Assembly: GCA_963971535.1 (NCBI GenBank)
Contig: OZ020589.1
Coordinates: 54,999,743 to 55,063,742 of the forward strand
Source: Notolepis coatsorum
Lineage: Eukaryota; Chordata; Actinopteri; Aulopiformes; Paralepididae
Length of the DNA: 64,000 nucleotides
Direction of reading: 5' to 3'
Shown: positions 35,226-59,738 of the stretch, piece after piece
Layout of the letters: the number at the start of each line of letters is the position of its first letter
How positions within the stretch are numbered: the first letter of the stretch is position 1
Translations under genes and position numbers: made by a program
Notes under the pieces: generated by a model
The model's input: only the letters and a program-made list of their open reading frames with translations
Database searches by the model: none
Told to the model about the DNA's origin: nothing

Positions 35226-35230
35226 GATTG
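35226..35230. repeat. LTR element 1 target-site duplication, left
   Basis: GATTG, repeated at 46031-46035. It lies inside L1 ORF2, which fixes the element's outer boundaries. Confidence 0.92.
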
Positions 35231-35899
35231 TGTAAAGTGTCACAGCCAACTAAGTGACACTGGGTAGTATGACATCCTGATCTTATATATGATTATGGGG
35301 AATGTCTGTAGATTCTTCCTGGACAATGGAATAGAAACATGTTATGTGTAAACACTCCTCCTCCTCTGATTGGAGCTATGTATGTGACCTGTATATCTGT
35401 GGCCCTGAGTCAAGAGCAGGCCCGAGCTGAGAGCAAGTCGGCACAGTTTAAACCTGTCCTGTCTGCATAGAATAAAACCAATGATTGGTACAGGTGTATT
35501 GTATATTTATATATATATATACAATATATACAATGCAATATACAATAGTATATTGATGTATTACAGGTATGTAGTACGCAGTACAGGTATATTGTGTATT
35601 GTAGGAACACAGGCCAGTTATTCCCTCTCAATAATGACTACAGCCCAGAGGAATGTACGGGGGCCTCTCTGTTCAAGAAGGGACTTTCCACAGCAGAGAC
35701 AGAGGGAGGAAGAAGGGGAGTCAGGAAGTTAACCCTTACAGTGAGCCAGCAGAACAGACATGCTCTGTTCCAGCAAAAACGTTACAATTACTTTTCGAGT
35801 TACGGCCCAGTGGAGTACAATGGGAGGAGAGCCAGTCCCCACGTACCGTGCATTGACTGGCTGGTGAAATGACATCACGGTGACAGCGCTGTATTTAGA

Positions 35900-35934
35900 C
35901 CAATAAGCAGAAGAGATCTGGGGCCCTTTATAAA
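35900..35934 (+). promoter_or_regulatory. LTR promoter: CCAAT and TATA box
   Basis: ACCAATAAG at about 35899 and TTTATAAAGG with TATAAA at 35929-35934, ~30 bp before a likely start at ATCACAGGCAG. The same motifs are in the right LTR (TATAAA at 45138-45143). Confidence 0.75.
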
Positions 35935-36094
35935 GGCCAACTGGTCAGATCACAGGCAGATTTTACACTGAGCTGGAGAGATAGGAAGATGTTGCTTGCG
36001 GGCACAAGCCGTGCCAGATGAGATGTTTTGTGTTATACTTCTTTTAAACTGTAATGGATATTTCCGCTCAAGTCTTTTTCTGTAACTTTATTGA

Positions 36095-36100
36095 AATAAA
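36095..36100 (+). terminator. LTR polyadenylation signal
   Basis: AATAAA followed by a T-rich segment (ATGACTTTTTATAATCC). The right-LTR copy is at 45304-45309 and would end the element's transcript. Confidence 0.7.
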
Positions 36101-36821
36101 AATGACTTTTTATAATCCATTGAGTTCTTGGACTGATTCCTGCCAGCAATGCCAGCAAATACCAGCCGCGCCCTGATTTCCTCTGAGGTGACTATGTCCT
36201 GAAATACAGATTGAATCAATTGACTGGTTAATGCTTTTCAGCTAAAAAATATATATATATATATGTATATGCTATGTACTGATAAGAAATACTATGCATG
36301 TAGATGGGTGTTGTTTGCGGGTTCCGGTGTCTCTGTGTCCAGACTGACTCTGTCTTATGTGGGACCTCGACCGTCTGAATCACTGCAGGGTTCAAGACGG
36401 TCGGTTCCGCTGACGGAGGAGGAGGAGGAGGACAGGAGGGGCCGGGGAGTGCAAACAATGATTACGTGTTAGTACAGTGGTAATACTTATTAAACGATGA
36501 AATAATATCATCAAGCTTTCAAATGAGCAGTATTACAGACCATTCCTCACAAATGAGGACGGTGATGGTGGATGATATAATAGTTCTCCTAGACAATACA
36601 TTCGGTTTATTTCAAACAAGAAGAGATTAACAACTCTTCATGATTACATTTCATATCAACTGGATATCACAAGACCAGTGACTTGAAGTAATCTAGACAG
36701 AAATAGTCAATTGACTCGAGAACTTGGCGAGTTTAGCACCTCGCCGGGGGATATCGAGCGGCCGCGGGTTTATATCTCGAGTAGGCGATTGAGATATATA
36801 GAGGCGACCTGTAGCTTAACA

Positions 36822-36835
36822 TGGCGTCCCTGGGT
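36822..36835 (+). other. Primer binding site, tRNA-Asn type
   Basis: TGGCGTCCCTGGGT directly after the LTR is the complement of the 3' end of animal tRNA-Asn including CCA (14 of 14 bases). The match then breaks (TAGGGC against GGGC). tRNA sequence is from memory. Confidence 0.82.
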
Positions 36836-37329
36836 TAGGGCTGAGATCGGTAAGATAACAGCCAAAATAAAATAAACTAGAAATATTGGAAAAAAAAAAA
36901 AAAAAACGGAGAACCGAGTTTTAGAATACACCAGTCAAAGGATATTGATCTGTAGGGCCCTCGATGGAGAGCAGTGGCAAATTAAAGGCATCTGCATAGT
37001 GGGGGCATTGCTGGTGGAGCGGTTGAGCCCGCAAAATTGGATTAAAGAAAAAAAAAAAGGGGTAAAGAAAACCCTCTCTCTAAAATGTCTGGCAGTTTAG
37101 AGAGACATCAGCGAAGCCAAAACGGCCGAAGAAGACAGGACTACTGTCAAAAGCCTCTGGAGTAAAATTAAATTACAGATTTGGAAAAAATTAAAGTAGA
37201 AAGCTCTACTGGCGACTCGAGTGGAAGGCTCTACTCGGGGATATCACAAATGAATAGAAAGGGGGGGGGGAGTTACAAGTGCAACATAATTTCGTGCTTT
37301 GCCCACAGGAAGTGAACTGGACCTAGCCA
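36836..37329 (+). other. LTR element 1 leader
   Basis: A/G-rich, with poly-A tracts at 36890-36906 and 37050-37058 and no ORF. ACAGATTTGGAAAAAATTAAAG plus the following CTCTACT (37175-37215) recurs in altered form at 41170-41215, just before the 111-bp array. Confidence 0.6.
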
Positions 37330-38100
37330 GACGAGAGCCAACTACCAAAGATACTGTATGCAAGGAGGGGAGACTGTATGTGAAGCGAAGTCAAAACGAC
37401 CGTTCACAGAAAGGCGAACTGGATGGCTCCCTAGCCCAAAGATACTGTTTGTAAGGAGGAGAGACTGTATGTGAAGCGAAGTCAAAACGACCGTTCACAG
37501 AAAGGCGAACTGGATGGCTCCCTAGCCCAAAGATACTGTTTGTAAGGAGGAGAGACTGTATGTGAAGCGAAGTCAAAACGACCGTTCACAGAAAGGCGAA
37601 CTGGATGGCTCCCTAGCCCAAAGATACTGTTTGTGAGGAGGGGAGACTGTATGTGAAGCGAAGTCAAAACGACCGTTCACAGAAAGGCAAACTGGATGGC
37701 TCCCTAGCCCAAAGATACTGTTTGTAAGGAGGAGAGACTGTATGTGAAGCGAAGTCAAAACGACCGTTCACAGAAAGGCGAACTGGATGGCTCCCTAGCC
37801 CAAAGATACTGTTTGTGAGGAGAGGAGACTGTATGTGAAGCTAAGTCAAAACGACCGTTCACAGAAAGGCGAACTGGATGGCTCCCTAGCCCAAAGATAC
37901 TGTTTGTGAGGAGGGGAGACTGTATGTGAAGCGAAGTCAAAACGACCGTTCACAGAAAGGCGAACTGGATGGCTCCTTAGCCCAAAGATACTGTATGTGA
38001 GGAGGGGAGACTGTATGTGAAGCGAAGTCAAAACGACCGTTCACAGAAAGGCGAACTGGAGAGCCAACTACCCAAAGCTACTGTATGTGAGGAGAAGCCA
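37330..38100. repeat. 91-bp tandem array in LTR element 1
   Basis: Eight copies with starts of ACTGTATGTGAAGCGAAGTC near 37374, 37465, 37556, 37647, 37738, 37829, 37920 and 38011. A few unit-specific substitutions are present. The repeated 61-codon minus ORFs are repeat artefacts. Confidence 0.95.
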
Positions 38101-38370
38101 AAACGGCCGTTCACAGGACTGCAAGCTAACTAGCTCACCATCGGCTAACAAGCCAGTGCTAACACCCATGAGCTGGCCCTAGCCAGACGGAAGCTAACTA
38201 GCACGACATCGGCTAACAAGCCAGTGCTAACACCCATGAGCTGGCCCTAGCCAGACGGAAGCTAACTAGCACGACATCGGCTAACAAGCCAGTGCTAACA
38301 CCCATGAGCTGGCCCTAGCCAGACGGAAGCTAACTAGCTCACCATCGGCTAACAAACCAGTGCTAACACG
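38100..38370. repeat. 68-bp tandem array upstream of the zinc-finger ORF
   Basis: About four copies containing CATCGGCTAACAAGCCAGTG, with starts near 38139, 38207, 38275 and 38343. The last copy runs directly into the ATG at 38371, so this array is the immediate 5' leader of the ORF. Confidence 0.93.
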
Positions 38371-40254
38371 ATGTCTCACAATCATTCCCACATCATAGAG
38401 GAGGAATCACCCTCGGATGAGGGATTGGGAGTGTCCATACCCGACCTGGGTCTGGACTACCTAGGAGAACGGGAGGAACACCCAGAGTCCCCTGAAACGT
38501 TTGCGGGAAGTGAGGAATTCACAGATCCAAGCAAATCACAATACCCAGAGCTGCCGGCTGTACAGCAAGCAGTAATTGGCACAGAAAATAAACCTTACTG
38601 CTGTGACCAGTGTGGAAAGAGCTTCAAGACGAAGCGTCACCTTAAAGGTCACCACTTGGTGCACACAGAAGAGAAACCTTACTGCTGTGACCAGTGTGGA
38701 AAGGGCTTCAAGGCGAAGCGTAACCTTACACTACACCACGTGGTACACACAGGAGAGAAACCTTACTGCTGTGACCAGTGTGAGAAGACCTTCAAGAAAA
38801 AGGGAGAGCTTAAAATTCACTGTACGGTACACACACGAGAGAGACCTTACAGCTGTGGCCAGTGTGGAAAGAGCTTCAAGACAAAGACATGTCTTAACCA
38901 ACACTGTACGGTACACACACGAGAGAGACCTTACAGCTGTGCCCAGTGTGGAAGGAGCTTCAAGACAAAGGCTCACCTTAAATGTCACCACATGGTACAC
39001 ACAGGAGAGAAACCTTACTGCTGTGCCCAGTGTGGGAATACCTTCAAGACGAGGGCAGAGCTTAAACAACACCACCGGGTACACACAGAACATAAACCTT
39101 ACGGTTGCGCCCAGTGTGAGAAGGCCTTCAAGACGAAGGGAGAGCTTAAAATTCACTGTACGGTACACACACGAGAGAGACCTTACAGCTGTGGCCAGTG
39201 TGGAAAGAGCCTCAAGACAAAGACATGTCTTAAACGTCACCACATGGTACACACAGGAGAGAAACCTTACTGCTGTGCCCAGTGTGGGAAGACCTTCAAA
39301 ACGGAGGCAGAACTTAAACAACACCGCACGGTACACACAGAAGAGAAACCTTACTGCTGTGATCAGTGTGGAAGGAGCTTCAAGACGAAGACTCACCTTA
39401 AACATCACCACCTGGTACACACACGAGAGAGACCTTACAGCTGTGGCCAGTGTGGAAAGAGCTTCAAGACAAAGACATGCCTTAACCAACACCACATGGT
39501 ACACATGGAAGAGAAACCTTACTGCTGTGACCAGTGTGGAAGGAGCTTCAAGACGAAGACTCACCTTAAACATCACCACCTAATACACACAGAAGGGAAA
39601 CCTTACTGCTGTGACCAGTGTGGGAAGACCTTCAAGACGAAGGCAGAACTTAAACAACACCACACGGTACACACAGAAGAGAAACCTTACTGCTGTGACC
39701 AGTGTGGAAAGAGCTTCAAGGCGAAGCGTAACCTTACACTACACCACATGGTACACACACGAGAGAAACCATACTACTGTGACCAGTGTTACATGAGCTT
39801 CCGGAACCTGCAAGGGCTTAAGAGACACAGACGGCGGAGGCAGCCATGCAAGGTGCCAACCTGCTTAACGGGGGCAGTAAGGGGTTATGTGTCTCGCTCA
39901 AGAACACTGCGACACACTATCAAAGACGAGTGTGGAAATGGAAAAAACCAAGAAGACGATGTAGTCATTCTTCCTCTTTATGAGGCGCCAGGCTCCACCT
40001 CAAAACGAGTATCTCCCTCCACTGACATAGAGGCGTTCAACTCTCTAGACGAGTACCTAAAGGCCAAAAACATCAATTATGAGCACTGTTCCATTTTCTA
40101 TGGCCCAGAAGAGGAGGATGGCGACATTCAGATGAAGGATCAGAACCCGAGGCCACAGATGACACCTTCAGGTGAAACTGAGTCTGAGCCTGAACAGGAT
40201 GGGGAGCTAAATACCTCTGAAACTGAACACAGTTCTGATTACTCAACATATTGA
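38371..40254 (+). CDS. Poly-C2H2 zinc-finger protein carried by LTR element 1
   Basis: An uninterrupted 627-codon ORF. Residues 1-73 are an acidic N-terminal region (EEESPSDEGLG, DYLGEREEHPESPE) with no KRAB, SCAN or BTB domain that I recognise. From residue 78 there are 14 canonical C2H2 fingers at a strict 28-residue period with TGEKPY/TRERPY-type linkers. A fifteenth (about 470-490) keeps both Cys and one His, then runs into HRRRRQPC. Residues 495-627 form a Ser/Glu/Asp-rich tail. DNA-contact position -1 is Thr in most fingers, while positions 2, 3 and 6 vary, and some fingers (2 and 14; 6, 9 and 13) share contact residues, which points to internal duplication. It is expected to be a nuclear DNA-binding protein. 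It lies between the LTRs, has no introns, and would be transcribed from the LTR or a downstream promoter. Origin by capture of a host gene transcript is an inference. Confidence 0.93.
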   Translation: MSHNHSHIIEEESPSDEGLGVSIPDLGLDYLGEREEHPESPETFAGSEEFTDPSKSQYPELPAVQQAVIGTENKPYCCDQCGKSFKTKRHLKGHHLVHTEEKPYCCDQCGKGFKAKRNLTLHHVVHTGEKPYCCDQCEKTFKKKGELKIHCTVHTRERPYSCGQCGKSFKTKTCLNQHCTVHTRERPYSCAQCGRSFKTKAHLKCHHMVHTGEKPYCCAQCGNTFKTRAELKQHHRVHTEHKPYGCAQCEKAFKTKGELKIHCTVHTRERPYSCGQCGKSLKTKTCLKRHHMVHTGEKPYCCAQCGKTFKTEAELKQHRTVHTEEKPYCCDQCGRSFKTKTHLKHHHLVHTRERPYSCGQCGKSFKTKTCLNQHHMVHMEEKPYCCDQCGRSFKTKTHLKHHHLIHTEGKPYCCDQCGKTFKTKAELKQHHTVHTEEKPYCCDQCGKSFKAKRNLTLHHMVHTREKPYYCDQCYMSFRNLQGLKRHRRRRQPCKVPTCLTGAVRGYVSRSRTLRHTIKDECGNGKNQEDDVVILPLYEAPGSTSKRVSPSTDIEAFNSLDEYLKAKNINYEHCSIFYGPEEEDGDIQMKDQNPRPQMTPSGETESEPEQDGELNTSETEHSSDYSTY

Positions 40255-40680
40255 GTAATAGCTCAAGAGAAGCTAGCACAAGGAGACGCTAGCTCACCAA
40301 AGGGGCTTCAATGGCCCAAATGATGGAAAGAGAAGTAAGGACCCCCGGTCAAGATCCAGGGGATAAGATGGTGGAGAAACTAACCCCCGATCAGCAAGCA
40401 GAGATAAGGGCAACAAAGGGAGAAATTACCTTCTGGGGCCCTGACACATGACACTCAAGCAAGTGCAACCTGCACTTGACGGGAAAAACATGGGGGAGAA
40501 ACTAACCCCAGAGCAGCAAGCAGAGATGAGGGCAACAAAGGGAGAAATGACCTTCTGGGGCCCTGACACAAGTGACTCAAGCAAGTGCGAACTGCACTTG
40601 ACATACAGCTCATCTGTCAAGAGGAATAATATAAAGTGTTATTGTCATTTAGGAAGAAACATGACATAGAATACTACATG
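40255..40680 (+). repeat. ~127-bp duplication downstream of the zinc-finger ORF
   Basis: GGAGAAACTAACCCC, AGCAAGCAGAGATRAGGGC and CTTCTGGGGCCCTGACACA occur twice (about 40370-40460 and 40493-40575). The 73-codon ORF at 40448-40669 overlaps the second copy; no function is suggested. Confidence 0.75.
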
Positions 40681-41189
40681 CATTTTGTATATATTCTAAG
40701 TATAATATGTAAAGATGTCCGTCCTTGCTCTAAACCCAGAGTAAAGTAAAGTGAATTTGTCATCTATTTCATTCAGAAGGGATTTCCTGACAGCAACCAT
40801 TTGGTGGGTTAGCACCCTACCAGCCATATCAGCTGCATGAGATGTACACTCACCAGCGCCTATGGGTAAAAAATTGAGACTCTGCAAACTCTCATCAAGC
40901 TTAGCACCTTGACGCGGGGGGACAGAGCGAGCATCAGGGTCTCTGTATCCGACGGGCCTATCAGATTTGTGGGGACTTGGAAGCCTCAGCACACAGGACG
41001 CTGTGGTGCTTAGGCGGCCAAGTCACTGGTTTATAGGTCTGTCAAAACGGATTGGAGGTTCCGGGGCTAAGAACATGAGTTCAAGTGAGTTGGGCTTTAT
41101 ACTATTTAAATAGGTATCAAAAGCCGAAAGAATATGAACCGAAATGACTGCTGTCAGGTGCCTCTGGAGTAGAATTAATTACAGATTTG
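40681..41189. other. LTR element 1 interior, one unassigned minus ORF
   Basis: A 98-codon minus-strand ORF (40992-40696) has balanced protein-like composition (residues AADMAGRVLTHQMVAVRKSL) but no family I can name. It could be a relic of retroelement coding sequence. It ends before the 111-bp array. Confidence 0.35.
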
Positions 41190-42975
41190 AAAAAACCAAA
41201 CGTAGAAGGTTCTACTCAAAGAAAGAATCACACTTAAAGTATATTTTTGTGATTGCAGTGAACGATCACTCATGACTAAAAAATTACGTAATGTTTTCTT
41301 ACAGTCAAAAACGTAGAAGGTTCTACTCAAAGAAAGAATCACACTTAAAGTATATTTTTGTGATTGCAGTGAAAGATCACTCATGACTAAAAAGTTACGT
41401 AATGTTTTCTTACAGTCAAAAACGTAGAAGGTTCTACTTAAAGAAAGAATCACACTTAAAGTATATTTTTGTGATTGCAGTGAAAGATCACTCATGACTA
41501 AAAAGTTACGTAATGTTTTCATACAGTCAAAAACGTAGAAGGTTCTACTCAAAGAAAGAATCACACTTAAAGTATATTTTTGTGATTGCAGTGAAAGATC
41601 ACTCATGACTAAAAAGTTACGTAATGTTTTCTTACAGTCAAAAACGTAGAAGGTTCTACTCAAAGAAAGAATCACACTTAAAGTATATTTTTGTGATTGC
41701 AGTGAAAGATCACTCATGACTAAAAAGTTACGTAATGTTTTCTTACAGTCAAAAACGTAGAAGGTTCTACTCAAAGAAAGAATCACACTTAAAGTATATT
41801 TTTGTGATTGCAGTGAAAGATCACTCATGACTAAAAAGTTACGTAATGTTTTCTTACAGTCAAAAACGTAGAAGGTTCTACTCAAAGAAAGAATCACACT
41901 TAAAGTATATTTTTGTGATTGCAGTGAAAGATCACTCATGACTAAAAAGTTACGTAATGTTTTCTTACAGTCAAAAAACGTAGAAGGTTCTACTCAAAGA
42001 AAGAATCACACTTAAAGTATATTTTTGTGATTGCAGTGAAAGATCACTCATGACTAAAAAGTTACGTAATGTTTTCTTACAGTCAAAAACGTAGAAGGTT
42101 CTACTCAAAGAAAGAATCACACTTAAAGTATATTTTTGTGATTGCAGTGAAAGATCACTCATGACTAAAAAGTTACGTAATGTTTTCTTACAGTCAAAAA
42201 CGTAGAAGGTTCTACTCAAAGAAAGAATCACACTTAAAGTATATTTTTGTGATTGCAGTGAAAGATCACTCATGACTAAAAAATTACGTAATGTTTTCTT
42301 ACAGTCAAAAACGTAGAAGGTTCTACTCAAAGAAAGAATCACACTTAAAGTATATTTTTGTGATTGCAGTGAAAGATCACTCATGACTAAAAAGTTACGT
42401 AATGTTTTCTTACAGTCAAAAACGTAGAAGGTTCTACTCAAAGAAAGAATCACACTTAAAGTATATTTTTGTGATTGCAGTGAAAGATCACTCATGACTA
42501 AAAAGTTACGTAATGTTTTCTTACAGTCAAAAACGTAGAAGGTTCTACTCAAAGAAAGAATCACACTTAAAGTATATTTTTGTGATTGCAGTGAAAGATC
42601 ACTCATGACTAAAAAGTTACGTAATGTTTTCTTACAGTCAAAAACGTAGAAGGTTCTACTCAAAGAAAGAATCACACTTAAAGTATATTTTTGTGATTGC
42701 AGTGAAAGATCACTCATGACTAAAAAGTTACGTAATGTTTTCTTACAGTCAAAAACGTAGAAGGTTCTACTCAAAGAAAGAATCACACTTAAAGTATATT
42801 TTTGTGATTGCAGTGAAAGATCACTCATGACTAAAAAGTTACGTAATGTTTTCTTACAGTCAAAAACGTAGAAGGTTCTACTCAAAGAAAGAATCACACT
42901 TAAAGTATATTTTTGTGATTGCAGTGAAAGATCACTCATGACTAAAAAGTTACGTAATGTTTACTTACAGTCGAA
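41190..42975. repeat. 111-bp tandem array with splice-acceptor-like motifs
   Basis: Sixteen nearly identical copies (starts of GTCAAAAACGTAGAAGGTTC at 41304, 41415, 41526, 41637 and so on). Each unit contains TTTTTGTGATTGCAG and, after a branch-like TGACTAA, GTTTTCTTACAG on the plus strand. The long minus-strand ORFs (37 codons per unit) arise because 111 is divisible by three. Confidence 0.96.
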
Positions 42976-44429
42976 ACCTAAGTAGAAAAATAGGTACCAG
43001 GTCACCTGAACTAGAAATAACCTAATGTTTACTTAAAATCAGAATAAGTCCTGCATAAATCCTGCTACTGTGATGGAAGTGGAACTGGCGTAATAATACA
43101 GGCTGGTGTTATCAGCAGGAGCTGAGTCTATAAGAGGCTACATAGCCTGAATCTACAAGCTGGCTAACTAGCCGGAGCTAATACCAGACATAAACAGTAA
43201 CTAACTACCCAGTCTGGACCGAGACAAGCACAACACAGGGTAGACCCCCTGTGCAAGAAGGAAGTGGACGGAAACAACAGTCCGAAAGGTCTGTGAACAA
43301 TGTGCGCTGGTAAGGGGGACAAAACCTGAACCAGTACCATCGAGACGAATAGCAGGCTGAAATAGCCATTGCGAGCAGGCTGAAATAGCCATTGCGAGCA
43401 GGCTGAAATAGCCATTGTGAATAGGAGCGAATAGCAGGCTAACTAGCCATTGCTAAAAGGACGAGGCTACTCACATGATCAGACAGGTATATGATAACCT
43501 TGGACATGCCGGAAGTAAGAGGATGTTGGTATACCTGAGAACTAACAACATTCTCATACCTAAAGCCAAACAAAGAGCGATAACAGTCCGAAAGGCCTGT
43601 GAACAATGTGCGCTGGTAAAGGTGCGCTGGTAAAGGGACAAAACCTGAACCAGTGCCACACTCTTAGACGGGGGGGGGGGGGGGCTGTCCCCCGGAGTCA
43701 GCGGACGACGCAGCGAATGGCAAGAAGGAATATACTGACTCAGGTCAGAAATCGGAAATGGAGGAAGACCGGGATAGGTCAAGCTCCAGAGCATCCTCAA
43801 GGTCCTCATCTAGACCTCCCAGACCTCCCAGACCTCCCAGACCTCCTAGACCTCCTAGACCGGACAGAGAGACATCGGCCTGGACCCAGGTTACAGGGCA
43901 ACGAGAGCCCTGAATGGACCTGAAAGAGAGAAAAGAAATGAGTCCTCTGTGGACTGTATCTGTGATGTCCTGCGAGGCCTACGGACAGGGTCACACGACC
44001 AGGCCAACCACACTTCAATAGAGGACTGATGCTACAATTCTCGGGGACCCGTGGGGGTCGCCCGAGAAGTGACAAATCAACCTACCTCAAACTATGGGAG
44101 AGATCCAAGAGGTCAGAGGGGGTGACCCCAAGATGACCAAGATGACCAAGATGACCAAGATGACGAAGACGACAACAACCTGGGTGCATCGGCCGGGAAC
44201 AACAGATGCAAGTCTTCCCGCCGGATACCAAGCAACAACGTGACCCCTATCCTGTCGAGCCGTCCAGCCAGGGAACAACAGATGCAAGTCTTCCCGCCGG
44301 CTACCAGGGTAACAAGGTACCAAGATGGCAGAGGGGGTGTGGAGAGTCACAGCCACGTGACCCCACAATCGCCATCTCGTCCCCCAGTACAGACGCTATT
44401 AAGACAATGGAAAATGACCGACCAGGATG
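42976..44429. other. LTR element 1 interior, 3' part with short repeats
   Basis: It includes four copies of a 23-bp GAGCAGGCTGAAATAGCCAT unit (43355-43430), a G-run (43661-43683), a CTCCCAGAC array (43815-43860), an AAGATGACC array (44132-44165) and a duplicated ACAGATGCAAGTCTTCCCGC (about 44203, 44278). No credible gene is visible. Confidence 0.6.
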
Positions 44430-44439
44430 ACAGAGGGGG
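44430..44439 (+). other. Polypurine tract of LTR element 1
   Basis: ACAGAGGGGG immediately before the right LTR, in the position where plus-strand DNA synthesis is primed. Confidence 0.7.
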
Positions 44440-46030
44440 TGTAAAGTGTCACAGCCAACTAAGTGACACTGGGTAGTATGACATCCTGATCTTATATATG
44501 ATTATGGGGAATGTCTGTAGATTCTTCCTGGACAATGGAATAGAAACATGTTATGTGTAAACACTCCTCCTCCTCTGATTGGAGCTATGTATGTGACCTG
44601 TATATCTGTGGCCCTGAGTCAAGAGCAGGCCCGAGCTGAGAGCAAGTCGGCACAGTTTAAACCTGTCCTGTCTGCATAGAATAAAACCAATGATTGGTAC
44701 AGGTGTATTGTATATTTATATATATATATACAATATATACAATGCAATATACAATAGTATATTGATGTATTACAGGTATGTAGTACGCAGTACAGGTATA
44801 TTGTGTATTGTAGGAACACAGGCCAGTTATTCCCTCTCAATAATGACTACAGCCCAGAGGAATGTACGGGGGCCTCTCTGCTCAAGAAGGGACTTTCCAC
44901 AGCAGAGACAGAAGGAGGAAGAAGGGGAGTCAGGAAGTTAACCCTTACAGTGAGCCAGCAGAACAGACATGCTCTGTTCCAGCAAAAACGTTACAATTAC
45001 TTTTCGAGTTACGGCCCAGTGGAGTACAATGGGAGGAGAGCCAGTCCCCACGTACCGTGCATTGACTGGCTGGTGAAATGACATCACGGTGACAGCGCTG
45101 TATTTAGACCAATAAGCAGAAGAGATCTGGGGCCCTTTATAAAGGCCAACTGGTCAGATCACAGGCAGATTTTACACTGAGCTGGAGAGATAGGAAGATG
45201 TTGCTTGCGGGCACAAGCCGTGCCAGATGAGATGTTTTGTGTTATACTTCTTTTAAACTGTAATGGATATTTCCGCTCAAGTCTTTTTCTGTAACTTTAT
45301 TGAAATAAAAATGACTTTTTATAATCCATTGAGTTCTTGGACTGATTCCTGCCAGCAATGCCAGCAAATACCAGCCGCGCCCTGATTTCCTCTGAGGTGA
45401 CTATGTCCTGAAATACAGATTGAATCAATTGACTGGTTAATGCTTTTCAGCTAAAAAATATATATATATATATGTATATGCTATGTACTGATAAGAAATA
45501 CTATGCATGTAGATGGGTGTTGTTTGCGGGTTCCGGTGTCTCTGTGTCCAGACTGACTCTGTCTTATGTGGGACCTCGACCGTCTGAATCACTGCAGGGT
45601 TCAAGACGGTCGGTTCCGCTGACGGAGGAGGAGGAGGAGGACAGGAGGGGCCGGGGAGTGCAAACAATGATTACGTGTTAGTACAGTGGTAATACTTATT
45701 AAACGATGAAGTAATATCATCAAGCTTTCAAATGAGCAGTATTACAGACCATTCCTCACAAATGAGGACGGTGATGGTGGATGATATAATAGTTCTCCTA
45801 GACAATACATTCGGTTTATTTCAAACAAGAAGAGATTAACAACTCTTCATGATTACATTTCATATCAACTGGATATCACAAGACCAGTGACTTGAAGTAA
45901 TCTAGACAGAAATAGTCAATTGACTCGAGAACTTGGCAAGTTTAGCACCTCGCCGGGGGATATCGAGCGGCCGCGGGTTTATATCTCGAGTAGGCGATTG
46001 AGATATATAGAGGCGACCTGTAGCTTAACA
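44440..46030 (+). repeat. LTR element 1, right LTR
   Basis: 1591 bp, same length as the left LTR and differing at about four bases by eye. Followed by the GATTG duplication (46031-46035). Confidence 0.93.
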
Positions 46031-46035
46031 GATTG

Positions 46036-49488: not shown

Positions 49489-49709
49489 TGTGAGGTTCGC
49501 CTCTTCCCTGGACCTTTATTTCCCTGTCTCCTCACCTCTCCAGCCCCCACCCTCGCGTTCTTTTACCCTCGTCTGCTCTTCAGCAGCCCACACCCTTGGA
49601 CTACCTGTCATTCTGTGTTTGATTGGTCCGTGCCGAACACACACTTCTAGTTCGAGTATCAATTACCATCACGCACCTGATGTGTATTCTAATTAGCGCC
49701 CCTGTGGGC

Positions 49710-49750
49710 TTTAAATACCTCGCTCTTCCCCTCAGTCCTGGTCGGGTCGT
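49710..49750 (+). promoter_or_regulatory. LTR promoter and self-primer sequence
   Basis: TTTAAATA at 49710-49717, initiator-like TCAGTCC with its A at 49734, then CTGGTCGGGTCGT (49738-49750). The last block is the reverse complement of 55603-55615. The right LTR has the same arrangement (58302-58342). Confidence 0.8.
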
Positions 49751-49921
49751 TCCGTATCATATCTCAATCTGTAAGCTCCTACGGGAGTTTCCCTATCTGT
49801 CTGAATGCTGTTCCATCTCCGGCGTTAGACGAGGTGCAAGCCTTCGCCACCTGTCGCCGTTTGCCTGGAGTGGGACACAGTACTGCGCTCTCTAATACTC
49901 TACGGGAGGTATTCCAGTGTT

Positions 49922-49926
49922 CCACT
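49922..49926. repeat. LTR element 3 target-site duplication, left
   Basis: CCACT, repeated at 54367-54371. The undisrupted right LTR (58501-58530) shows the empty site with a single CCACT. Confidence 0.92.
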
Positions 49927-50233
49927 TGTTATGTACTAGAGGCTGGTCACTCCTGTGTCACCAGGGCATGTAGGTGAGGGCTGCCAATTAGCCAATTAGT
50001 GCTGATTGGTTACCTGCTGGGGAGCTTCAAAGGCAGACCCAGTAACACACATGCACGGTCTGTGCCTAGTGAAAGAGCTGTCAGGTTCTTACAGTCCTTG
50101 TCCGTTGGGTTACCAGTACATTAGTTTATAGTTATATTAGTAGTTCTTTGGTTTAGTAGCATTTTGAGTTAGAGCACAGGGTTTTGGTGTTGATTACACA
50201 TAGGTTGCGTACCCATGAGCCAGGGTCGTAACA
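49927..50233 (+). repeat. LTR element 3, left LTR
   Basis: TGTTATGTACTAGAGGCTGG to AGCCAGGGTCGTAACA. Differs from the right LTR by TTAGTTT/TTCGTTT and a one-T indel near 50162. Confidence 0.93.
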
Positions 50234-50235
50234 GT

Positions 50236-50253
50236 TGGGGGCTCGTCCGGGAT
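50236..50253 (+). other. Primer binding site, tRNA-Pro type
   Basis: TGGGGGCTCGTCCGGGAT, 18 bases complementary to the 3' end of tRNA-Pro, two bases after the LTR. The same site is known from gammaretroviruses and other elements. Confidence 0.93.
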
Positions 50254-51076
50254 CTTTTACCCCTAGAACTTTGTTTGGTGATTTTTTTTTGTGTTGCACG
50301 GGGTGTCATCATATTATGGTTTGGGTGGTGTTCGTTACACATGGTGTAACGTGGGGGCTGAGCCATTTTCATCAAACAGGTGAGTATGCCGTATTTGTTT
50401 GTAATTTGATGTGACTACTTATGCTGTTAAAATATATAGTTTAGTAGGCACCACATGTAGATAGGGATATTATTTTCTGGTTGTTGGTTAGCGTCCGGTG
50501 CACCGCGTACTCCTGGGGCGGTCAATGAAATGATTGTATATGATCTTTGACTGGTAGCAGGTGTGGTTGAAGAAAGTTAGGTCTACAGGGCATTAGTTTA
50601 AGGGTAGGTAGGTTAGGGCGGCCAGGAAACACAGGTAGTGTGGTAGGGCTTGATTTAGTGTTTCTTAGGGTAGACATGTGGTAGGCCGGGGTTTTCTGCA
50701 GTTTAGACGTAGAAGCATATGTGGTCACATCAAGTTAGAAGGCGCACCTGTTTGGAATATTTTGTTGGATTTATTTTGTTTGTTTAAGTGTTTGGTGAGC
50801 ATACCTGGTAGCACCTAACACCCTGCGTGTATGACACGTCTATTTAGGGTGGGTGTGTTTTAAAAAAAAAAAAATTTGTTTGTTTGTGCAACCTGGAAAG
50901 GTGCGCTCCGTAGAGCTCACATTTCCACCGCGTTCCCTTCTGGTTGTTATTGTTGGCAATTAGCATTATTCATGGTTCTTCAGTGGTTCTTCGTTGTTCT
51001 TCAGTGGTTCGTTGGGGGGGTCTTCGTGGTTCGTTAGTGGTTCTTCGTGTCTGTGAGGTTGGGTGTGTAGCTTGGG
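50254..51076 (+). other. LTR element 3 leader
   Basis: T/G-rich untranslated region with no ORF. TTCAGTGGTTC and related words repeat at 50970-51050. Confidence 0.6.
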
Positions 51077-51094
51077 GTGTCTAGTTCAGTGACA

Positions 51095-51940
51095 ATGGCT
51101 TCCATCAGGGACTTTGTTGATCGCCCGTCTCATGACTTATTAGACAAATTTTCCAAAGAACAACTGCTCGAGCTTGCTGTGCACTACAAGGTCGAGCTTA
51201 CTCCCAGTGAGAAACGTTTGAAACCATCTGCCTTGGGTGCTTTTAGGGTTTTGCTCATTAGGGAACAGGTGCTTGAGGAGAGGGTGGAGGAGCCTCCTTT
51301 GTCTGACGTGTCTCCGCTATTACCTGGTGTAGAGGGTGAGTGGAGGATTAGGGAGTTGGAGTTTAAAGAAAGGCAGCTAGAGCGAGAGCGTGAGGAGAGG
51401 AAAGAGGAGCGTGAGCTTAAGGAGAGAGAGAGGAAAGAGGAGCGTGAGTTTAAGGAGAGACAAATGTTGCTGGAGCACGAGCGTGCGCAGAAGGAGCTTG
51501 AGTATAAGCATGCTGCCTTACAGGCGGGTGTTCTGCATCCAGAGTCACGTTCCGGTTTTGATGTAGGCAGGAATATTAGGATGGTGCCTCCGTTTTTTGA
51601 GAAAGACATGGAAAGATATTTTCCCCTTTTTGAACGGGTGGCAACCACATTGAAGTGGCCTGATACCGCCTGGACACTGCTGCTGCAATGTGTTTTGGTT
51701 GGTAGGGCGCAAGAAGCCTACACTGCTCTGTCCCTTGAACAAAGCGCTGATTATGAGCTGGTTAAAGCTTCCATTTTGAGGGCTTATGAGTTGGTCCCTG
51801 AGGCCTATCGTCAGCTTTTAGAGGTTATCGTAGGTCCGAGGGGCAGTCTTATGTTGAGTTTGGAAGGGAGAAGGAGAACCTGTTTGACAGGTGGTGCACT
51901 TCTCAGAAGGCAGAGTCAAGAGAGCAGCTTAGGCAGTTGA
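51095..51940 (+). pseudogene. LTR element 3 gag, frameshifted
   Basis: The likely start is the ATG at 51095 (MASIRDFVDRPS), with 51077 also possible. A highly charged coiled-coil segment (about 51350-51510: repeated KERER, EEREL) is followed by a capsid-like segment (KDMERYFPLFERVATTLKWP, WTLLLQCVLVGRAQEAY, YELVKASILRAYELVPEAYR) that resembles the SCAN-related capsid C-terminal domain of Gmr1-like elements. Near 51810 a one-base loss shifts the frame; the remaining capsid continues in the frame of the next ORF, so no full Gag is made. The ORF end to 51940 is out-of-frame reading. Confidence 0.82.
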
Positions 51941-53922
51941 TTCTCCTAGAGGAATTTAAAAGATGTGTTCCTGATACCGTTTCCACACATCTAAATGAGT
52001 GTGGGGTATCGAAGATAAGCGACGCCGCTGTCTTCGCCGATGAGTTTGTGTTGACACACAAGTCTGTGTTTTTGGAGGACTACCGTGTTGAGTCCGGGGA
52101 TAGGCGTCCTGTTCAGGGGGGCCGTTTCCCAAAACCGGTGTCTGCTGGTCAATTAACTTCACCTCCTAGGCGGGGTGGTTCTGCTGGTGCATTCCCAGAA
52201 GGGATTATCTGTTTTTACTGTAAGGAACCTGGTCATATCGTTGCTGGATGCCCGGTGCTTGAGCAGAAAAATGTCAGAACCGTGGCTCTGGTAGAGACCA
52301 TATGCAGGACGCCTATGCCAACGTTAGATGGGGATGGGGAAGGTATCAAACGTGTGGACAAAGAGCTCGAGGGTTCCCCGAGGTTTATGATGAATGGATT
52401 TGTTTCCCTGACTAATGCACTAGAGTCCAAACAGGCTATAACAATTTGGAGAGATACCGGTGCTTTTCAGTCCCTCATTCTGGAGGGGGTTTTGCCATTT
52501 TCAGAAAACTCTTCTTTTCATTCCGATGTCGTTGTTCTGGGCTTTGGGGGTGGATTTGTGGATGCACCTTTGCATGAGGTCACGCTCAATTCTCCCTTAG
52601 TATCAGGCAATGTTGTTGTGGGGGTATGTTCTCACATTCCCATAAAGGGGGTGTCCTTCATTCTAGGGAATGATTTGGCTGGTGACAAAGTGTTGGCTAC
52701 TCCGGTTGTAACTCCCATTCCTGTGGTTTCTGAGGTCTCTAATGAGCTGGCACAGAAACATCCAGGAGTGTTTCCTGTGTGTGCTGTGGCACGAGAAATG
52801 TCAACGGACAAAAGTGATGTTGTTGATACTTCGACTTGGGACATTACACTTAGTGACACATTCTTTGTTGAATTAAAAGGTGCACCTGTTGAGAATTTTG
52901 GAAAGCACACTGTGGATGTACCTCTGCATAATGATTCTCTTGATTGTGGTTTTGTGTTAGGCCCGGTGGTGAAACCAGAGTTGACAGGCGTGCCGGAGAA
53001 ACATGTGACAGGAGATGATATGGCAGCGCAGTGTCTCAAGGTCTTCCCAGCCTGTACGGTGGCTGAGGCCACGGACGAATTGGAGGAGGAGTGTGGGAAG
53101 GATGCTATGAGAGGTGCTGTTTTTTTATGTGACACCGTTCTAGTTGGAGGGGCTACTAAGCTTGATTTAGGCTGCCAGCCTTCCCACAATAGCTCTATTG
53201 TCCCTAATGTTTCGCTTGTGGGCAGGGATGGTCCCAGTATGTCAGTTGATGATTCTGACATTGATCCACATGTCCACACTGATTCTCTGCCATGCACTTG
53301 GTGTGATGGTCAACCTAGTTACCTGTGTCCTGTGGAGCAGGAGCCGCCTTCGCGACCTGGTCTGTTGAGTGGCAGCCATTTTGATTTTGATCAGGACAAA
53401 GTTATTTTGGGTGACGCCATTTTAGATGGTGTTCCAGACGTTATTGTGACTGTCGTACGGCCAGGTTCCCGGTACACTGGGGCTGTACCTGAGGCGGTAC
53501 AGCCTACTCTGGATGTTCACGGTGTGCAGTATCCTGAACTGCCAGTGCCAGGTGGGATGGATATGGGTGCGGTGGTGGTATCAGTGATTTATGGTTTTGT
53601 TGTGCTGTGTTCTGTTCTGTTAAGCGCAGTTCTCAGGTTGATTTTGGTTTGCAGTATAATTTTGACAGATCGGTATCGGTGGTCGTGTTCGACAGGGGCC
53701 GACCCGGTTCTTGCCTTGAACCATTTTTATGTTTACGTTGGATCCTCCAGTTTACCCCTTGTTGGGTATACAGACCATAACCCTTTGGTTTTTCTTCGCA
53801 GCATGGTGAATTCGAACCATCGTTTGATGCTATGGAGTTTGTTCCTCCAGGCGTATAACTTGGATATTCGCCACATTCGTGGGAGGGACAACGTGCTAGC
53901 AGACGCCCTCTCACGATCATAG
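51937..53922 (+). pseudogene. LTR element 3 gag end, zinc knuckle, protease and RNase H tail
   Basis: This ORF holds the end of capsid (HLNECGVSKISDAAVFADEF), a CCHC knuckle (CFYCKEPGHIVAGC, about 52210-52251), a retropepsin-like segment with active-site DTGA (about 52455) and FILGNDLAG (about 52660-52690), then a region of unclear function with two FP-C-V boxes. At about 53560-53670 is a hydrophobic run of ~30 residues. From about 53760 it is the RNase H C-terminus (GYTDHNPLVFLRSM, NLDIRHIRGRDNVLADALSR). RT, most of RNase H and any integrase are absent. The frame remains open across the deletion. Confidence 0.82.
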
Positions 53923-54047
53923 TACCGGTGTTTGTGGTACCCGTTATCGCTGTTGTGGTAGAGGCCCTGACACCTAAGGGGTCACAGTTGTTTTTTGTTT
54001 TGGTTTATGGGTTGTTGTGTAGTGGTTGCCTCTTGGGCAACCAGTTT

Positions 54048-54058
54048 GGTGGGGGAGG
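54048..54058 (+). other. Polypurine tract of LTR element 3
   Basis: GGTGGGGGAGG immediately before the right LTR. Confidence 0.75.
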
Positions 54059-54366
54059 TGTTATGTACTAGAGGCTGGTCACTCCTGTGTCACCAGGGCA
54101 TGTAGGTGAGGGCTGCCAATTAGCCAATTAGTGCTGATTGGTTACCTGCTGGGGAGCTTCAAAGGCAGACCCAGTAACACACATGCACGGTCTGTGCCTA
54201 GTGAAAGAGCTGTCAGGTTCTTACAGTCCTTGTCCGTTGGGTTACCAGTACATTCGTTTATAGTTATATTAGTAGTTCTTTGGTTTAGTAGCATTTTTGA
54301 GTTAGAGCACAGGGTTTTGGTGTTGATTACACATAGGTTGCGTACCCATGAGCCAGGGTCGTAACA
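54059..54366 (+). repeat. LTR element 3, right LTR
   Basis: 308 bp, matching 49927-50233, followed by CCACT (54367-54371). Confidence 0.93.
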
Positions 54367-54371
54367 CCACT

Positions 54372-54955
54372 CCAGACTCCGCGCCAGACGCGCTCTTCAC
54401 TCCAGACTCCGCGCTAGACGCGCTCTTCACTCCAGATGCGCATCCAGACGCGCATCCAGACGCACTCCAGACCTCCGCGCCAGATGCGCTCTCCGTACCG
54501 GCGCGTACTCCAAGCAGACGCGCACCACTCAGACCTCCGCGCCAGATGCGCTCTCCGTACCGGCGCGTACTCCAAGCAGACGCGCATCACTCAGACCTCC
54601 GCGCCAGATGCGCTCTCCGTACCGGCGCATACTCCAAGCAGACGCGCACCACTCAGACCTCCGCGCCAGATGCGCTCTCCGTACCGGCGCGTTCTCCAAG
54701 CAGACGCACACTCCGAACCGGCGCGTTCTCCAAGCAGATGCGCTCTCCGTACCGGCGCGTTCTCCAAGCAGACGCACACTCCGAACCGGCGCGTTCTCCA
54801 AGCAGACGCACACCCCGAACCGGCGCGTTCTCCAAGCAGACGCACACTCCGAACCGGCGCGTTCTCCAAGCAGACACGCACCACTCAGACCCCGCGCCAG
54901 ATGCGCTCTCCGAGCCGGCGCGCTCTCCTCCAGACGTCTAGCCTGCGCGCTCCTA
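54372..54955. repeat. LTR element 2 minisatellite A (left LTR)
   Basis: Units of CTCCAAGCAGACGCGCACC, ACTCAGACCTCCGCGCCAG and ATGCGCTCTCCGTACCGGCG, in ~60-bp and ~30-bp forms. Also present at 58520-59095 in the right LTR with a different copy arrangement. The Arg/Pro/Ser-rich ORFs in several frames are repeat artefacts. Confidence 0.93.
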
Positions 54956-55014
54956 CTCCATCCCTGTAAGCAGCTCTGACCCTCGCCCTGTTCCAAGGCC
55001 CGAACCCTGTTTTC

Positions 55015-55372
55015 TCTGTCCCTGTCCCCAGCCCGCCTCCGCGGGCCTCTGTCCCTGTTTCCCCTCTCTAGTCCTCCTAGTCCTCCCTGTCCAGTCCTTC
55101 TAGTCCTCCTAGTCCTCCCTGTCCCCAGCCCGCCTCCGCGGGCCTCTGTCCCTGTTTCCCCTCTCTAGTCCTCCTAGTCCTCCCTGTCCAGTCCTTCTAG
55201 TCCTCCTAGTCCTCCCTGTCCCCAGCCCGCCTCCGCGGGCCTCTGTCCCTGTTTTCCCCTCTCTAGTCCTCCTAGTCCTCCTTGTCCAGTCCTCCTAGTC
55301 CTCCCTGTCCAGTCCTTCTAGTCCTCCTAGTCCTCCCTGTCCAGTCCTCCTAGTCCTCCCTGTTCCTGCCCT
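55015..55372. repeat. LTR element 2 minisatellite B (left LTR)
   Basis: A ~105-bp higher-order unit (CCCAGCCCGCCTCCGCGGGC plus CTAGTCCTCCTAGTCCTCC blocks), about three copies. Also at 59170-59510 in the right LTR. Confidence 0.92.
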
Positions 55373-55602
55373 GTTCCCTTGCCCTGGCCCAGTCCTTTAG
55401 CCTTTCCCTTAGCCTTCCCCTTAGCCAGCTCGCCTCTTAAAGGCACTGTGCCCTTTCCCAAGTTCTTGTTTTCCTGTAAGTTGTGTTCTCCCTTAAAGGG
55501 ACAGTGCCGTTTTCTGTTGTTTTCAATAAATGCCCAGTTCTTGGCTTACTCTCATACCTGTCTTGTGTTGTGCGATTGGGGTCGGTTACAAACCATAACA
55601 GT

Positions 55603-55615
55603 ACGACCCGACCAG
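55603..55615 (+). other. Self-priming primer binding site of LTR element 2
   Basis: ACGACCCGACCAG, two bases after the left LTR, is the exact reverse complement of CTGGTCGGGTCGT (49738-49750), which lies ~4 nt from the predicted RNA 5' end. No tRNA 3' end that I know fits, as a tRNA site would start TGG. Confidence 0.8.
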
Positions 55616-57385
55616 TCGACGACCCCAGCCAGCACAGACGGTGTATGTTGAGTTTGCCTTTTTTTTGTTCCCTCTAGTTCCCCTGTTAGCCTTGTTAGTT
55701 CCCCTGTTGATTCCCCTGTTAGCTCCCCTGTTAGCCCCTGTTAGCTCCCCTGTTAGCCTGTTAGTCTCCCCTGTTAGCTCCCCTGTTAGCCTTTGTTAGC
55801 TCCCCTGTTAGCTTCCCTGTTAGCTCCCCTGTTAGCCTGTTAGTCTCCCCTGTTAGCTTCCCTGTTAGCCTCGTTAGCTCCCCTGCAGCTTGCCAGGCCT
55901 CTACTACCAGCATGGCCCCGGTCTGCTAGCTTAGCCCCGGCTGCTAGCACAGCCTCTATGTTAATGCAGCCCTTGCAGCTAGCATAGGCCCTGTAGCTAG
56001 CCATGCCCAGGCAGCTAACCCGGTCCCTCTGCATGGCCTCCACTTTTTGTGTAGTTTCCCCACTGCTAGGACTGCCCTTTCAGCTAGCAAGGTCAGTTTT
56101 CCCCACTGCTAGGACTGCCCCTTCAGCTAGCAAGGTCAGTTTTCCCCACTGCTAGGACTGCCCCTTCAGCTAGCAAGGTCAGTTTTCCCCACTGCTAGGA
56201 CTGCCCCTTCAGCTAGCAAGGTCAGTTTTTCCCCACTGCTAGGACTGCCCCTTCAGCTAGCAAGGTCAGTTTTCCCCACTGCTAGGACTGCCCCTTCAGC
56301 TAGCAAGGTCAGTTTTCTCCCACTGCTAGGACTGCCCTTTCAGCTAGCAAGGTCAGTTTCCCCATGCTAGGACTGCCCCTTCAGCTAGCAAGGCCAGTTT
56401 TTCCCCACTGCTAGGACTGCCCCTTCAGCTAGCAAGGTCAGTTTTCCCCACTGCTAGGACTGCCCCTTCAGCTAGCAAGGTCAGTTTTCTCCCACTGCTA
56501 GGACTGCCCTTTCAGCTAGCAAGGTCAGTTTCCCCACTGCTAGGACTGCCCCTTCAACTAGCAAGGTCAGTTCTCTCCCACTGCTAGGACTGCCCCTTCA
56601 GCTAGCAAGGTCAGTTTCCCCACTGCTAGGACTGCCCCTTCAGCTAGCACGGTCAGTTTTCTCCCACTGCTAGGACTGCCCCTTCAGCTAGCTAGGTCAG
56701 TTTCCCACAGCTAGGACTGTCCTTCCAGCTAGCTTGTTCTCTCATGCTGGTCCAGCCCTGTCTGCCAGCCTAGCTCCGGCAGCTAGCGCAGCCTCTATGT
56801 TAATGTAGCAGTACAGCTAGCATAGGCCCTGTAGCTATCAGTGCCCTGGCAGCTACCCTTTCCCTCTGCTAGCCCCTTCCCTGTTCCCCTCTCCAGTGCC
56901 CCTGTTCCAGCCCTGTCTGCTAGCCTAGCTCCGGCAGCTAGCGCAGCCTCTATGTTAATGTAGCAGTACAGCTAGCATAGGCCCTGTAGCTATCAGTGCC
57001 CTGGCAGCTACCCTTTCCCTCTGCTAGCCCCTTCCCTGTTCCCCTCTCCAGTGCCCCTGTTCCAGCCCTGTCTGCTAGCCTAGCTCCGGCAGCTAGCGCA
57101 GCCTCTATGTTAATGTAGCAGTACAGCTAGCATAGGCCCTGTAGCTATCAGTGCCCTGGCTGTTACCCCTCAGCTCCTCTAGTTACCCCTCAGCTCCTCT
57201 GGTTACCCCTCAGCTCCTTTAGTTACCCCTCAGCTCCTCTAGTTACCTCTCAGCTCCTCTGGTTACCCCTCAGCTCCTCTAGTTACCCTTCAGCTACCCT
57301 AGTTACCCCTCAGCTACCCTAGTTACCCCTCAGCTACCCTAGTTAACCTTCAGCTACCCTGTCCCTTTGCTAGCCCCACTTTTGT
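55616..57385. repeat. LTR element 2 interior: tandem repeats
   Basis: In order: a GTTAGCTCCCCT-type ~12-bp array (55676-55880); TTTTCCCCACTGCTAGGACT plus GCCCCTTCAGCTAGCAAGGT, period 43 bp, about 15 copies (56040-56715); about two and a half copies of a ~165-bp unit with CTAGCCTAGCTCCGGCAGC (56755-57160); and a ~20-bp GTTACCCCTCAGCTCCTCTA array (57160-57360). GACCCCAGCCAGCAC at 55620 sits where a related autonomous element would begin gag, but no start or ORF remains. Confidence 0.9.
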
Positions 57386-57957
57386 TCAAGTTTCAAGTTT
57401 CAAGTTTCTTTAATAGTTGTCATACAGAAGTACAGAATATTTTTGTACAAAATGCTTCTTACTGTTGCGCTCCAGAGACTGTGCAAGACAAGATAAGTAT
57501 GAAATAAAAACATAGTAAAATTAGAAGTAAAAAAGAGGTCACAGTGTTCAGTTTAGACATATGTACAATGTTCGATGCAGAATAGACGTAGTTACCATAC
57601 AATATACAATACTGTGCAGTGTACTAATATACAATACTATATAGTGCAAGGCAGAAATGGAGAAATGGGACGAGGTGCAATTTAGGTACAATTCACAGTA
57701 GGTGTACGAGTTGTAGTGCAAATCCTTTATCAATAAATATAAAGTGTAAGTGTGTTTGTGTGATCTAAAGTGTGGAGAGTGGGTGCTGCAGTGTGTTGTT
57801 TGTTTGAGTGAGTGTGTGCGTGTGGGTGTGTGTGCTGTGTGCATTTGATGGTTGTTGCATAGTGATTATTGTTCGTTTAGCGATTATTGTTCGTTTAGCA
57901 GCCTGATGGCCTGGGGATAGAAGCTTCTTCTGAGTCTTTCTGTGCTCGCCTTAAGAC
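57386..57957 (-). mobile_element. Rex1/CR1-group LINE 3' fragment in LTR element 2
   Basis: Same family as 1146-3575. It carries the 3' UTR and the last ~30 codons of ORF2 and is truncated at GCCTTAAGAC. The word CGATTATTGTTCGTTTAG is locally duplicated at about 57869-57897. Confidence 0.88.
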
Positions 57958-58080
57958 AGGTTTGTTGTAGCTTCCCCTGCTAGCATGGCCCAGTACTTTT
58001 TGTTTGTTGCCTTGTTTTGTCCCCTGCCACTCTGTCTGTATTTTTGGGTCGCCCGGTGGCTCCCGTGGAGGGGGGAGTAC
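57958..58080 (+). other. LTR element 2 interior 3' end and polypurine tract
   Basis: The last internal ~120 bp ends with GGAGGGGGGAG (58067-58077) and TAC just before the LTR. No ORF is retained. Confidence 0.7.
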
Positions 58081-59738
58081 TGTGAGGTTCGCCTCTTCCC
58101 TGGACCTTTATTTCCCTGTCTCCTCACCTCTCCAGCCCCCACCCTCGCGTTCTTTTACCCTCGTCTGCTCTTCAGCAGCCCACACCCTTGGACTACCTGT
58201 CATTCTGTGTTTGATTGGTCCGTGCCGAACACACACTTCTAGTTCGAGTATCAATTACCATCACGCACCTGATGTGTATTCTAATTAGCGCCCCTGTGGG
58301 CTTTAAATACCTCGCTCTTCCCCTCAGTCCTGGTCGGGTCGTTCCGTATCATATCTCAATCTGTAAGCTCCTACGAGAGTTTCCCTATCTGTCTGAATGC
58401 TGTTCCATCTCCGGCGTTAGATGAGGTGCAAGCCTTCACCACCTGTCGCCGTTTGCCTGGAGTGGGACACAGTACTGCGCTCTCTAATACTCTACGGGAG
58501 GTATTCCAGTGTTCCACTCCAGACTCCGCGCCAGACGCGCTCTTCACTCCAGACTCCGCGCTAGACGCGCTCTTCACTCCAGACGCGCATCCAGACGCGC
58601 ATCCAGACGCACTCCAGACCTCCGCGCCAGATGCGCTCTCCATACTGGCGCGTACTCCAAGCAGACGCGCACCACTCAGACCTCCGCGCCAGATGCGCTC
58701 TCCGTACCGGCGCGTACTCCAAGCAGACGCGCACCACTCAGACCTCCGTGCCAGATGCGCTCTTCGTACCGGCGCGTACTCCAAGCAGACGCGCACCACT
58801 CAGACCTCCGCGCCAGATGCGCTCTCCGTACCGGCGCGTTCTCCAAGCAGACGCACACTCCGAACCGGCGCGTTCTCCAAGCAGACGCACACCCCGAACC
58901 GGCGCGTTCTCCAAGCAGACGCACACTCCGAACCGGCGCGTTCTCCAAGCAGACGCACACCCCGAACCGGCGCGTTCTCCAAGCAGACGCACACTCCGAA
59001 CCGGCGCGTTCTCCAAGCAGACACGCACCACTCAGACCCCGCGCCAGATGCGCTCTCCGAGCCGGCGCGCTCTCCTCCAGACGTCTAGCCTGCGCGCTCC
59101 TACTCCATCCCTGTAAGCAGCTCTGACCCTCGCCCTGTTCCAAGGCCCGAACCCTGTTTTCTCTGTCCCTGTCCCCAGCCCGCCTCCGCGGGCCTCTGTC
59201 CCTGTTTCCCCTCTCTAGTCCTCCTAGTCCTCCCTGTCCAGTCCTTCTAGTCCTCCTAGTCCTCCCTGTCCCCAGCCCGCCTCCGCGGGCCTCTGTCCCT
59301 GTTTCCCCTCTCTAGTCCTCCTAGTCCTCCCTGTCCAGTCCTTCTAGTCCTCCTAGTCCTCCCTGTCCCCAGCCCGCCTCCGCGGGCCTCTGTCCCTGTT
59401 TTCCCCTCTCTAGTCCTCCTAGTCCAGTCCTCCTAGTCCTCCCTGTCCAGTCCTTCTAGTCCTCCTAGTCCTCCCTGTCCAGTCCTCCTAGTCCTCCCTG
59501 TTCCTGCCCTGTTCCCTTGCCCTGGCCCAGTCCTTTAGCCTTTCCCTTAGCCTTCCCCTTAGCCAGCTCGCCTCTTAAAGGCACTGTGCCCTTTCCCAAG
59601 TTCTTGTTTTCCTGTAAGTTGTGTTCTCCCTTAAAGGGACAGTGCCGTTTTCTGTTGTTTTCAATAAATGCCCAGTTCTTGGCTTACTCTCATACCTGTC
59701 TTGTGTTGTGCGATTGGGGTCGGTTACAAACCATAACA
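58081..59738 (+). repeat. LTR element 2, right LTR
   Basis: 1658 bp from TGTGAGGTTCGCCTCTTCC to GGTTACAAACCATAACA. It contains TATA (58302-58309), the self-primer sequence (58330-58342), minisatellites A and B, and AATAAA (59663-59668). It differs from the left LTR mainly in repeat copy number and a few substitutions. Followed by CATTG (59739-59743). Confidence 0.92.

Follow-up and report, generated by a model that had tools for sequence, protein, structure and literature searches.

Zinc-finger genes are known as a host answer to retroelements, and arrays of the PRDM9 type combine near-identical finger backbones with diversity at the contact residues. Large retrotransposon derivatives (LARDs), in turn, consist of long terminal repeats (LTRs) of considerable length around a long interior without pol. 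Here, we describe a retroelement that carries, multiplies, and apparently reshuffles a zinc-finger gene: an LTR-flanked insert at positions 35231–46030 of a 64,000-nucleotide stretch (the window) of the Notolepis coatsorum genome (assembly GCA_963971535.1, contig OZ020589.1), with an intact C2H2 zinc-finger (ZNF) open reading frame (ORF) in its interior. It probably belongs to a family of non-autonomous LTR elements whose payload is this gene, which the family spreads and shuffles. The element is like LARDs in its long LTRs and long pol-less interior but differs in its intact long ORF; its array shares with the PRDM9 type the contact-residue diversity on similar backbones, whereas the ORF encodes no PR/SET or KRAB domain and is spread by a retroelement.

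Three further comparisons draw on parts of the cited texts. Some epsilon-like fish endogenous retroviruses have extra ORFs, e.g. for CNPase or macro-domain proteins (PMC4977317, citing Basta et al. 2009). These, too, are LTR elements with host-type genes, and a macro domain is also found in one copy of the present family (C1a, see below); in contrast, the present family has a long C2H2 array that varies between copies and no pol in the copies examined, and we claim no kinship with epsilon-like retroviruses. LTR-mediated retroposition, including in zebrafish, and the maize element Bs1 have been described (PMC5408686), with template switching able to place a cellular mRNA between LTRs for recopying; what differs here is a family of 304 marker places with arrays differing between copies. 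Knockdown of zebrafish FiNZ-ZNF genes raises LTR-element expression (PMC10547256). FiNZ- and KRAB-ZNFs are likewise large, fast-evolving C2H2 families tied to LTR elements, but they are host genes, whereas the present gene lies inside an element and encodes no KRAB domain detectable by Pfam.

Among the openly licensed literature matches listed, judged by titles and abstract starts and with no repeat database searched, none concerned a C2H2 array carried by an LTR element. Host-type gene cargo is already known; within the reach of these searches, a many-copy family with arrays differing between copies appears new. Should the proteins be produced, they might benefit the element, repress its rivals, or seed host regulators. 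The hundreds of natural variants within a single genome also allow a direct test of whether lineage-specific zinc-finger families can originate inside the elements that they supposedly police.

The element and its insertion site

The two LTRs (35231–36821 and 44440–46030, both on the plus strand) are each 1591 bp long. The preliminary description, made from the window sequence, had called them equal, which applies to their length and not to their identity: they differ by four substitutions, at LTR positions 442, 474, 1272, and 1499, corresponding to an age of ∼0.1–0.6 million years if 2.2e-9 to 1e-8 substitutions per site and year are assumed. The LTRs start with TGT and end with ACA; within them a CCAAT box is followed by a TATA box and then a polyadenylation signal, as expected (in the 5′ LTR, CCAAT at 35900, TATA at 35927, and AATAAA at 36095). 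On both outer sides lies the target site duplication (TSD) GATTG (35226–35230 and 46031–46035). Removal of the insert and one GATTG restores the empty site, a single 807-codon L1 ORF2 reverse-transcriptase frame spanning the junction, which bears out the earlier placement of the duplication inside L1 ORF2.

The expected priming sites are present as well, as had also been claimed. TGGCGTCCCTGGGT sits immediately 3′ of the 5′ LTR as the primer binding site (PBS; 36822–36835, plus strand), and we take it to be the complement of the 3′ end of tRNA-Asn. The polypurine tract AGAGGGGG (44432–44439, plus strand) is short and was read by eye; an identical tract precedes the 3′ LTR in other copies. TG...CA terminal repeats, a TSD, a primer site, and a polypurine tract together mark the insert as an LTR retroelement. 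As a side observation, GGGACTTTCC, presumably an NF-kB-type site, occurs once per LTR, at 35680–35689 and 44889–44898.

The ZNF ORF (38371–40254, plus strand) is intact between the LTRs and comprises 627 codons: an acidic N-terminus (residues 1–77), 14 canonical C2H2 fingers by our count (78–462), as first described, a degenerate finger (471–493) of C2HC type as read by eye, and an acidic C-terminus. Pfam returned C2H2 finger families only, with no KRAB, SCAN, or PR/SET domain. With the full ORF as query, 7899 of the 7921 candidates scored were matched via the fingers, with ≤51% identity among the 120 matches listed, the best BLAST match among these being a herring PRDM9-like protein. Homolog searches with the termini gave no match for the C-terminus at E ≤ 0.001 (108 candidates) or for the N-terminus at E ≤ 1 (1621 candidates), and searches of viral contigs, prokaryote contigs, and Rfam gave nothing. 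Modelling the C-terminus by itself with AlphaFold yielded no useful information (mean predicted local distance difference test score 39).

Repeats of such scale can confuse assembly, and a misassembly might have put the ZNF between the LTRs. The chance of this is negligible in our view, as it is contradicted by the same arrangement at five further places and by a window without any N.

Copies of the gene between LTRs

The source genome (3.42 Gb) contains 304 places matching a 24-base C-terminal marker with ≤2 mismatches (reversed control 0), which excludes the single ORF-bearing copy that the preliminary description had named as evidence against itself. The exact LTR/PBS junction recurs at 41 places (reversed control 0), and at 11 of these a ZNF from the best-150 set lies 1.9–5.1 kb downstream on the same strand, against ∼0.01 expected by chance. 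That set comprises the best 150 of 11200 first-look candidates for the C-terminal domain, ranked by protein score, and counts drawn from it are a minimum rather than a fair sample. All 150 have ≥95% identity over 132 residues and 147 are stop-free; open frames reach at least 300 codons at 139 places and at least 400 codons at 124, and frame length agrees with that of the window modulo 28, the finger period, at 65.

A query with the LTR, for which 40 of 3497 first-look candidates were scored, gave 82 matches, from which 13 LTR pairs were picked and joined with the window to make 14 LTR-pair places. Within-pair LTR identity is 98.8–100% across these places. A 5-bp TSD was seen by eye at nine of them (GATTG, TGTCC, ACACT, CATGT, CTATG, CTAAA, GATAG, GTGAG, and GCGAT) and was not seen or not readable at C6a, C23a, C24b, C1b, and C23b, two of which end at a stretch boundary. 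Five places have a ZNF between their LTRs, namely the window copy C13 (627 codons), C1439 (471), C1a (1025), C8a (789), and C24b (420, with its N-terminus broken by a frameshift). A further place chosen through its ORF, C21 at 23.26 Mb, has an LTR pair with a diverged LTR body, a primer site, an AATGG duplication, and a ZNF. Five ZNF-bearing insertions therefore have five different TSDs (C13 GATTG, C1439 TGTCC, C1a CTAAA, C8a GATAG, and C21 AATGG), which is the outcome set beforehand as the test of a mobile family.

These duplications also bear on whether a host zinc-finger cluster was spread by segmental duplication, with the LTRs being secondary. Six same-strand ZNF pairs less than 30 kb apart among the best 150 places would suit such a history, which is nevertheless very improbable: it is contradicted by the five different 5-bp TSDs and the empty site, the 150 places are spread over 37 contigs, and in other copies, too, the ORF comes together with the leader, tandem arrays, and 3′ segment. 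At 30 ORF loci, the post-ORF segment was found at all 30, the N-terminus at 24, the 68-bp region at 22, the 3′ segment at 18, and the LTR at none, as is to be expected for loci that include just 1.5 kb of sequence to either side. Three further ORF-chosen places have upstream, respectively, leader and LTR pieces, leader pieces, and the 91-bp array only; at the first place, one further stretch was searched for the second LTR and did not contain it.

Finger arrays and the possible use of the protein

The arrays differ far more than the sequences around them. In their C-terminal DNA, the other four LTR-paired ZNF copies are 97.8–99.5% identical to the window, and other element segments are 96.3–99.5% identical, with the exception of the U5 part of C24b (89%); several copies diverge over the first third of the LTR, their matches starting at LTR position 534. 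The five LTR-paired arrays have 5, 9, 10, 14, and 20 fingers, with at most two consecutive contact types in common. Across 33 places we counted 27 distinct arrays and 348 fingers, which represent 133 finger DNAs and 58 combinations of contacts, finger counts being taken in any frame and some ORF-chosen stretches cutting the array; places with a shared array form four groups that total ten places.

This variation is concentrated at the residues that contact DNA. In the window array, the contact codons −1, 2, 3, and 6 have 1.54 base differences per pair versus 0.41 elsewhere, and only 4 of 20475 four-position sets are as extreme (4 of 7315 without the ligands and the fixed F/L positions). Among the 133 finger DNAs, with the comparison limited to free positions, the set of positions 2, 3, and 6 takes rank 1 among 455 and the full set of four contacts rank 29 among 1365; because the finger pattern used here itself demands the zinc ligands and F/L, we do not claim their invariance as a result. 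Given this variation at contact residues, the protein is most likely a DNA binder whose array determines the sites bound.

A mechanism compatible with these observations can be outlined. The LTR would drive an element RNA, which partner proteins acting in trans would reverse-transcribe and integrate, carrying the gene along. During joint copying of two element RNAs, switches of template in the 84-bp finger repeats could swap and re-count fingers, and the outcome would be a different array per lineage, in line with the array differences observed. A bolder version regards the family as a diversity generator, in which arrays recombine when co-packaged RNAs are reverse-transcribed, contact residues are under selection, and new specificities are scattered genome-wide by the hundreds, either defending or steering the element or feeding host zinc-finger families; we offer this version tentatively and rather doubt it.

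Several observations weigh against the payload reading, in addition to the scope of the finger counts given above. Silent variants number 6 and replacement variants 13 among the five LTR-selected copies, with a ratio of 0.63 (p 0.40), so that the unbiased copies provide no proof of selection. C-terminal divergence in the LTR-selected copies (23 of 1507) is lower than that of the post-ORF segment (61 of 2364) and U5 (82 of 3097), higher than that of the leader (12 of 1861), and level with that of the 3′ segment (24 of 1802). A crude recognition-code scan of the LTR, the arrays, and the ORF performed no better than shuffles, a negative that says little because just 18 of 42 motif positions are informative. 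From the estimated transcript start, 47 ATGs precede the ORF (44 after predicted splicing) and could block translation, though none of their frames overlaps the ZNF ORF. Nine of the 14 LTR-pair places are without a ZNF, and no pol or partner element was found among the ORFs of at least 180 codons at the 14 places.

Lower ratios of replacement to silent polymorphism (pN/pS) were obtained with larger sets, 0.287 for the C-terminus (30 copies) and 0.379 for the N-terminus (13 copies). We set these values aside as evidence of selection because ranking by protein similarity favours copies with few replacements.

A rival reading is that of a passive passenger: a host zinc-finger transcript captured once, its frames still open because the insertions are young, its arrays varied by slippage of the 84-bp repeat, and its protein useless to the element. 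The selection counts and segment divergences of the LTR-selected copies, the many upstream ATGs, and the young LTR pairs all fit, as do ZNF-less copies that also multiply, with LTRs 99–100% identical (C24a, C6b, C45, C1b, and C1534). Slippage alone, however, does not predict variation concentrated at DNA-contact residues, although this variation may date from the host gene, prior to its capture, and frames of at least 300 codons persist at 139 of the best 150 places, a set ranked by protein score. A passive passenger is a serious contender, from which we lean away in favour of a family that spreads and shuffles its gene as a payload.

Interior modules and neighbouring elements

The ORFs of at least 180 codons at the 14 LTR-pair places are of the ZNF, LAQEEL, 811-codon, C1a, and array-derived (MQGGETV...) types. 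Among ZNF-less copies, LAQEEL repeats open the short ORFs of C6a, C24a, C6b, C45, and C1b, the LAQEEL ORF of C21a runs to 810 codons, C1534 and C23b have the 811-codon ORF, and C23a has no ORF of 180 codons; in view of this mixed content, the interior is modular. The LTRs of C1534 are 1952 bp long with zero differences. The 811-codon ORF (L027:3807–6239, plus strand) was assigned to no family. Long ORFs made up of LAQEEL/LAQEKL six-residue repeats (L022/L023 and L024/L025; 810 and 467 codons) have at their end sequence that is related to the 811-codon ORF.

One copy joins several modules. The C1a ORF (L017:2–2986, minus strand) encodes in one frame an N-terminus and a C-terminus that are the same as those of the window ORF and, between them, a macro domain (PF01661, E 6.9e-8, above cut-off; PDB macro domains also matched), a segment 81% like the 811-codon ORF, and the fingers. 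The end of the 811-codon ORF also recurs in C24b, 3′ of the ZNF, and the window retains a remnant of it (40299–40388, plus strand) that covers 30 residues at 80% identity. From this fusion and the retained remnant, one could read the array as the nucleic-acid-binding module of a Gag-like structural protein of the family, its fingers joined to a polyprotein and aiding RNA packaging or DNA targeting. Such a role is unlikely: neither Pfam nor a PDB sequence search identified the 811-codon ORF as Gag or capsid, and five of the six LTR-enclosed ZNF copies have no such fusion in the output examined.

In the window copy, eight interior pieces scanned with Pfam (seven sense pieces of at least 60 codons and one antisense) gave nothing at or above cut-off. 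The earlier statement that the interior has no gag-pol thus stands for the scanned pieces, but is qualified by the remnant of the family's 811-codon ORF. A diverged direct repeat (37139–37189 and 41146–41195; score 65 versus a shuffle maximum of 34) flanks the ORF-bearing segment; a repeat of this kind could stem from an insertion made through recombination or through a template switch.

The remaining interior features all lie on the plus strand. Weight-matrix scores predict a leader intron at 36850–37308 (donor TCG|GTAAGA, acceptor TTGCCCACAG|G), which is followed by a 91-bp tandem array of 8.3 copies that recurs in other copies of the element (37345–38094) and a 68-bp tandem array of 3.6 copies that stops just 5′ of the ORF (38123–38369). 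Downstream are a 111-bp tandem array of 16 copies (41198–42976) and a non-coding 3′ segment common to other copies (42977–44431). In the predicted spliced leader, the upstream ATG frames within the 91-bp array are just one or three codons long, mostly alternating.

Nested LTR elements lie elsewhere in the window, at 49489–59738. The inner element (49927–54366), situated in the 5′ LTR of the outer one, has LTRs of ∼307 bp, a CCACT duplication, a SCAN-domain ORF (Pfam E 2.2e-11), and a primer site that we take to be tRNA-Pro-like. The outer element has a CATTG duplication and an interior (55601–58080) that consists largely of tandem repeats.

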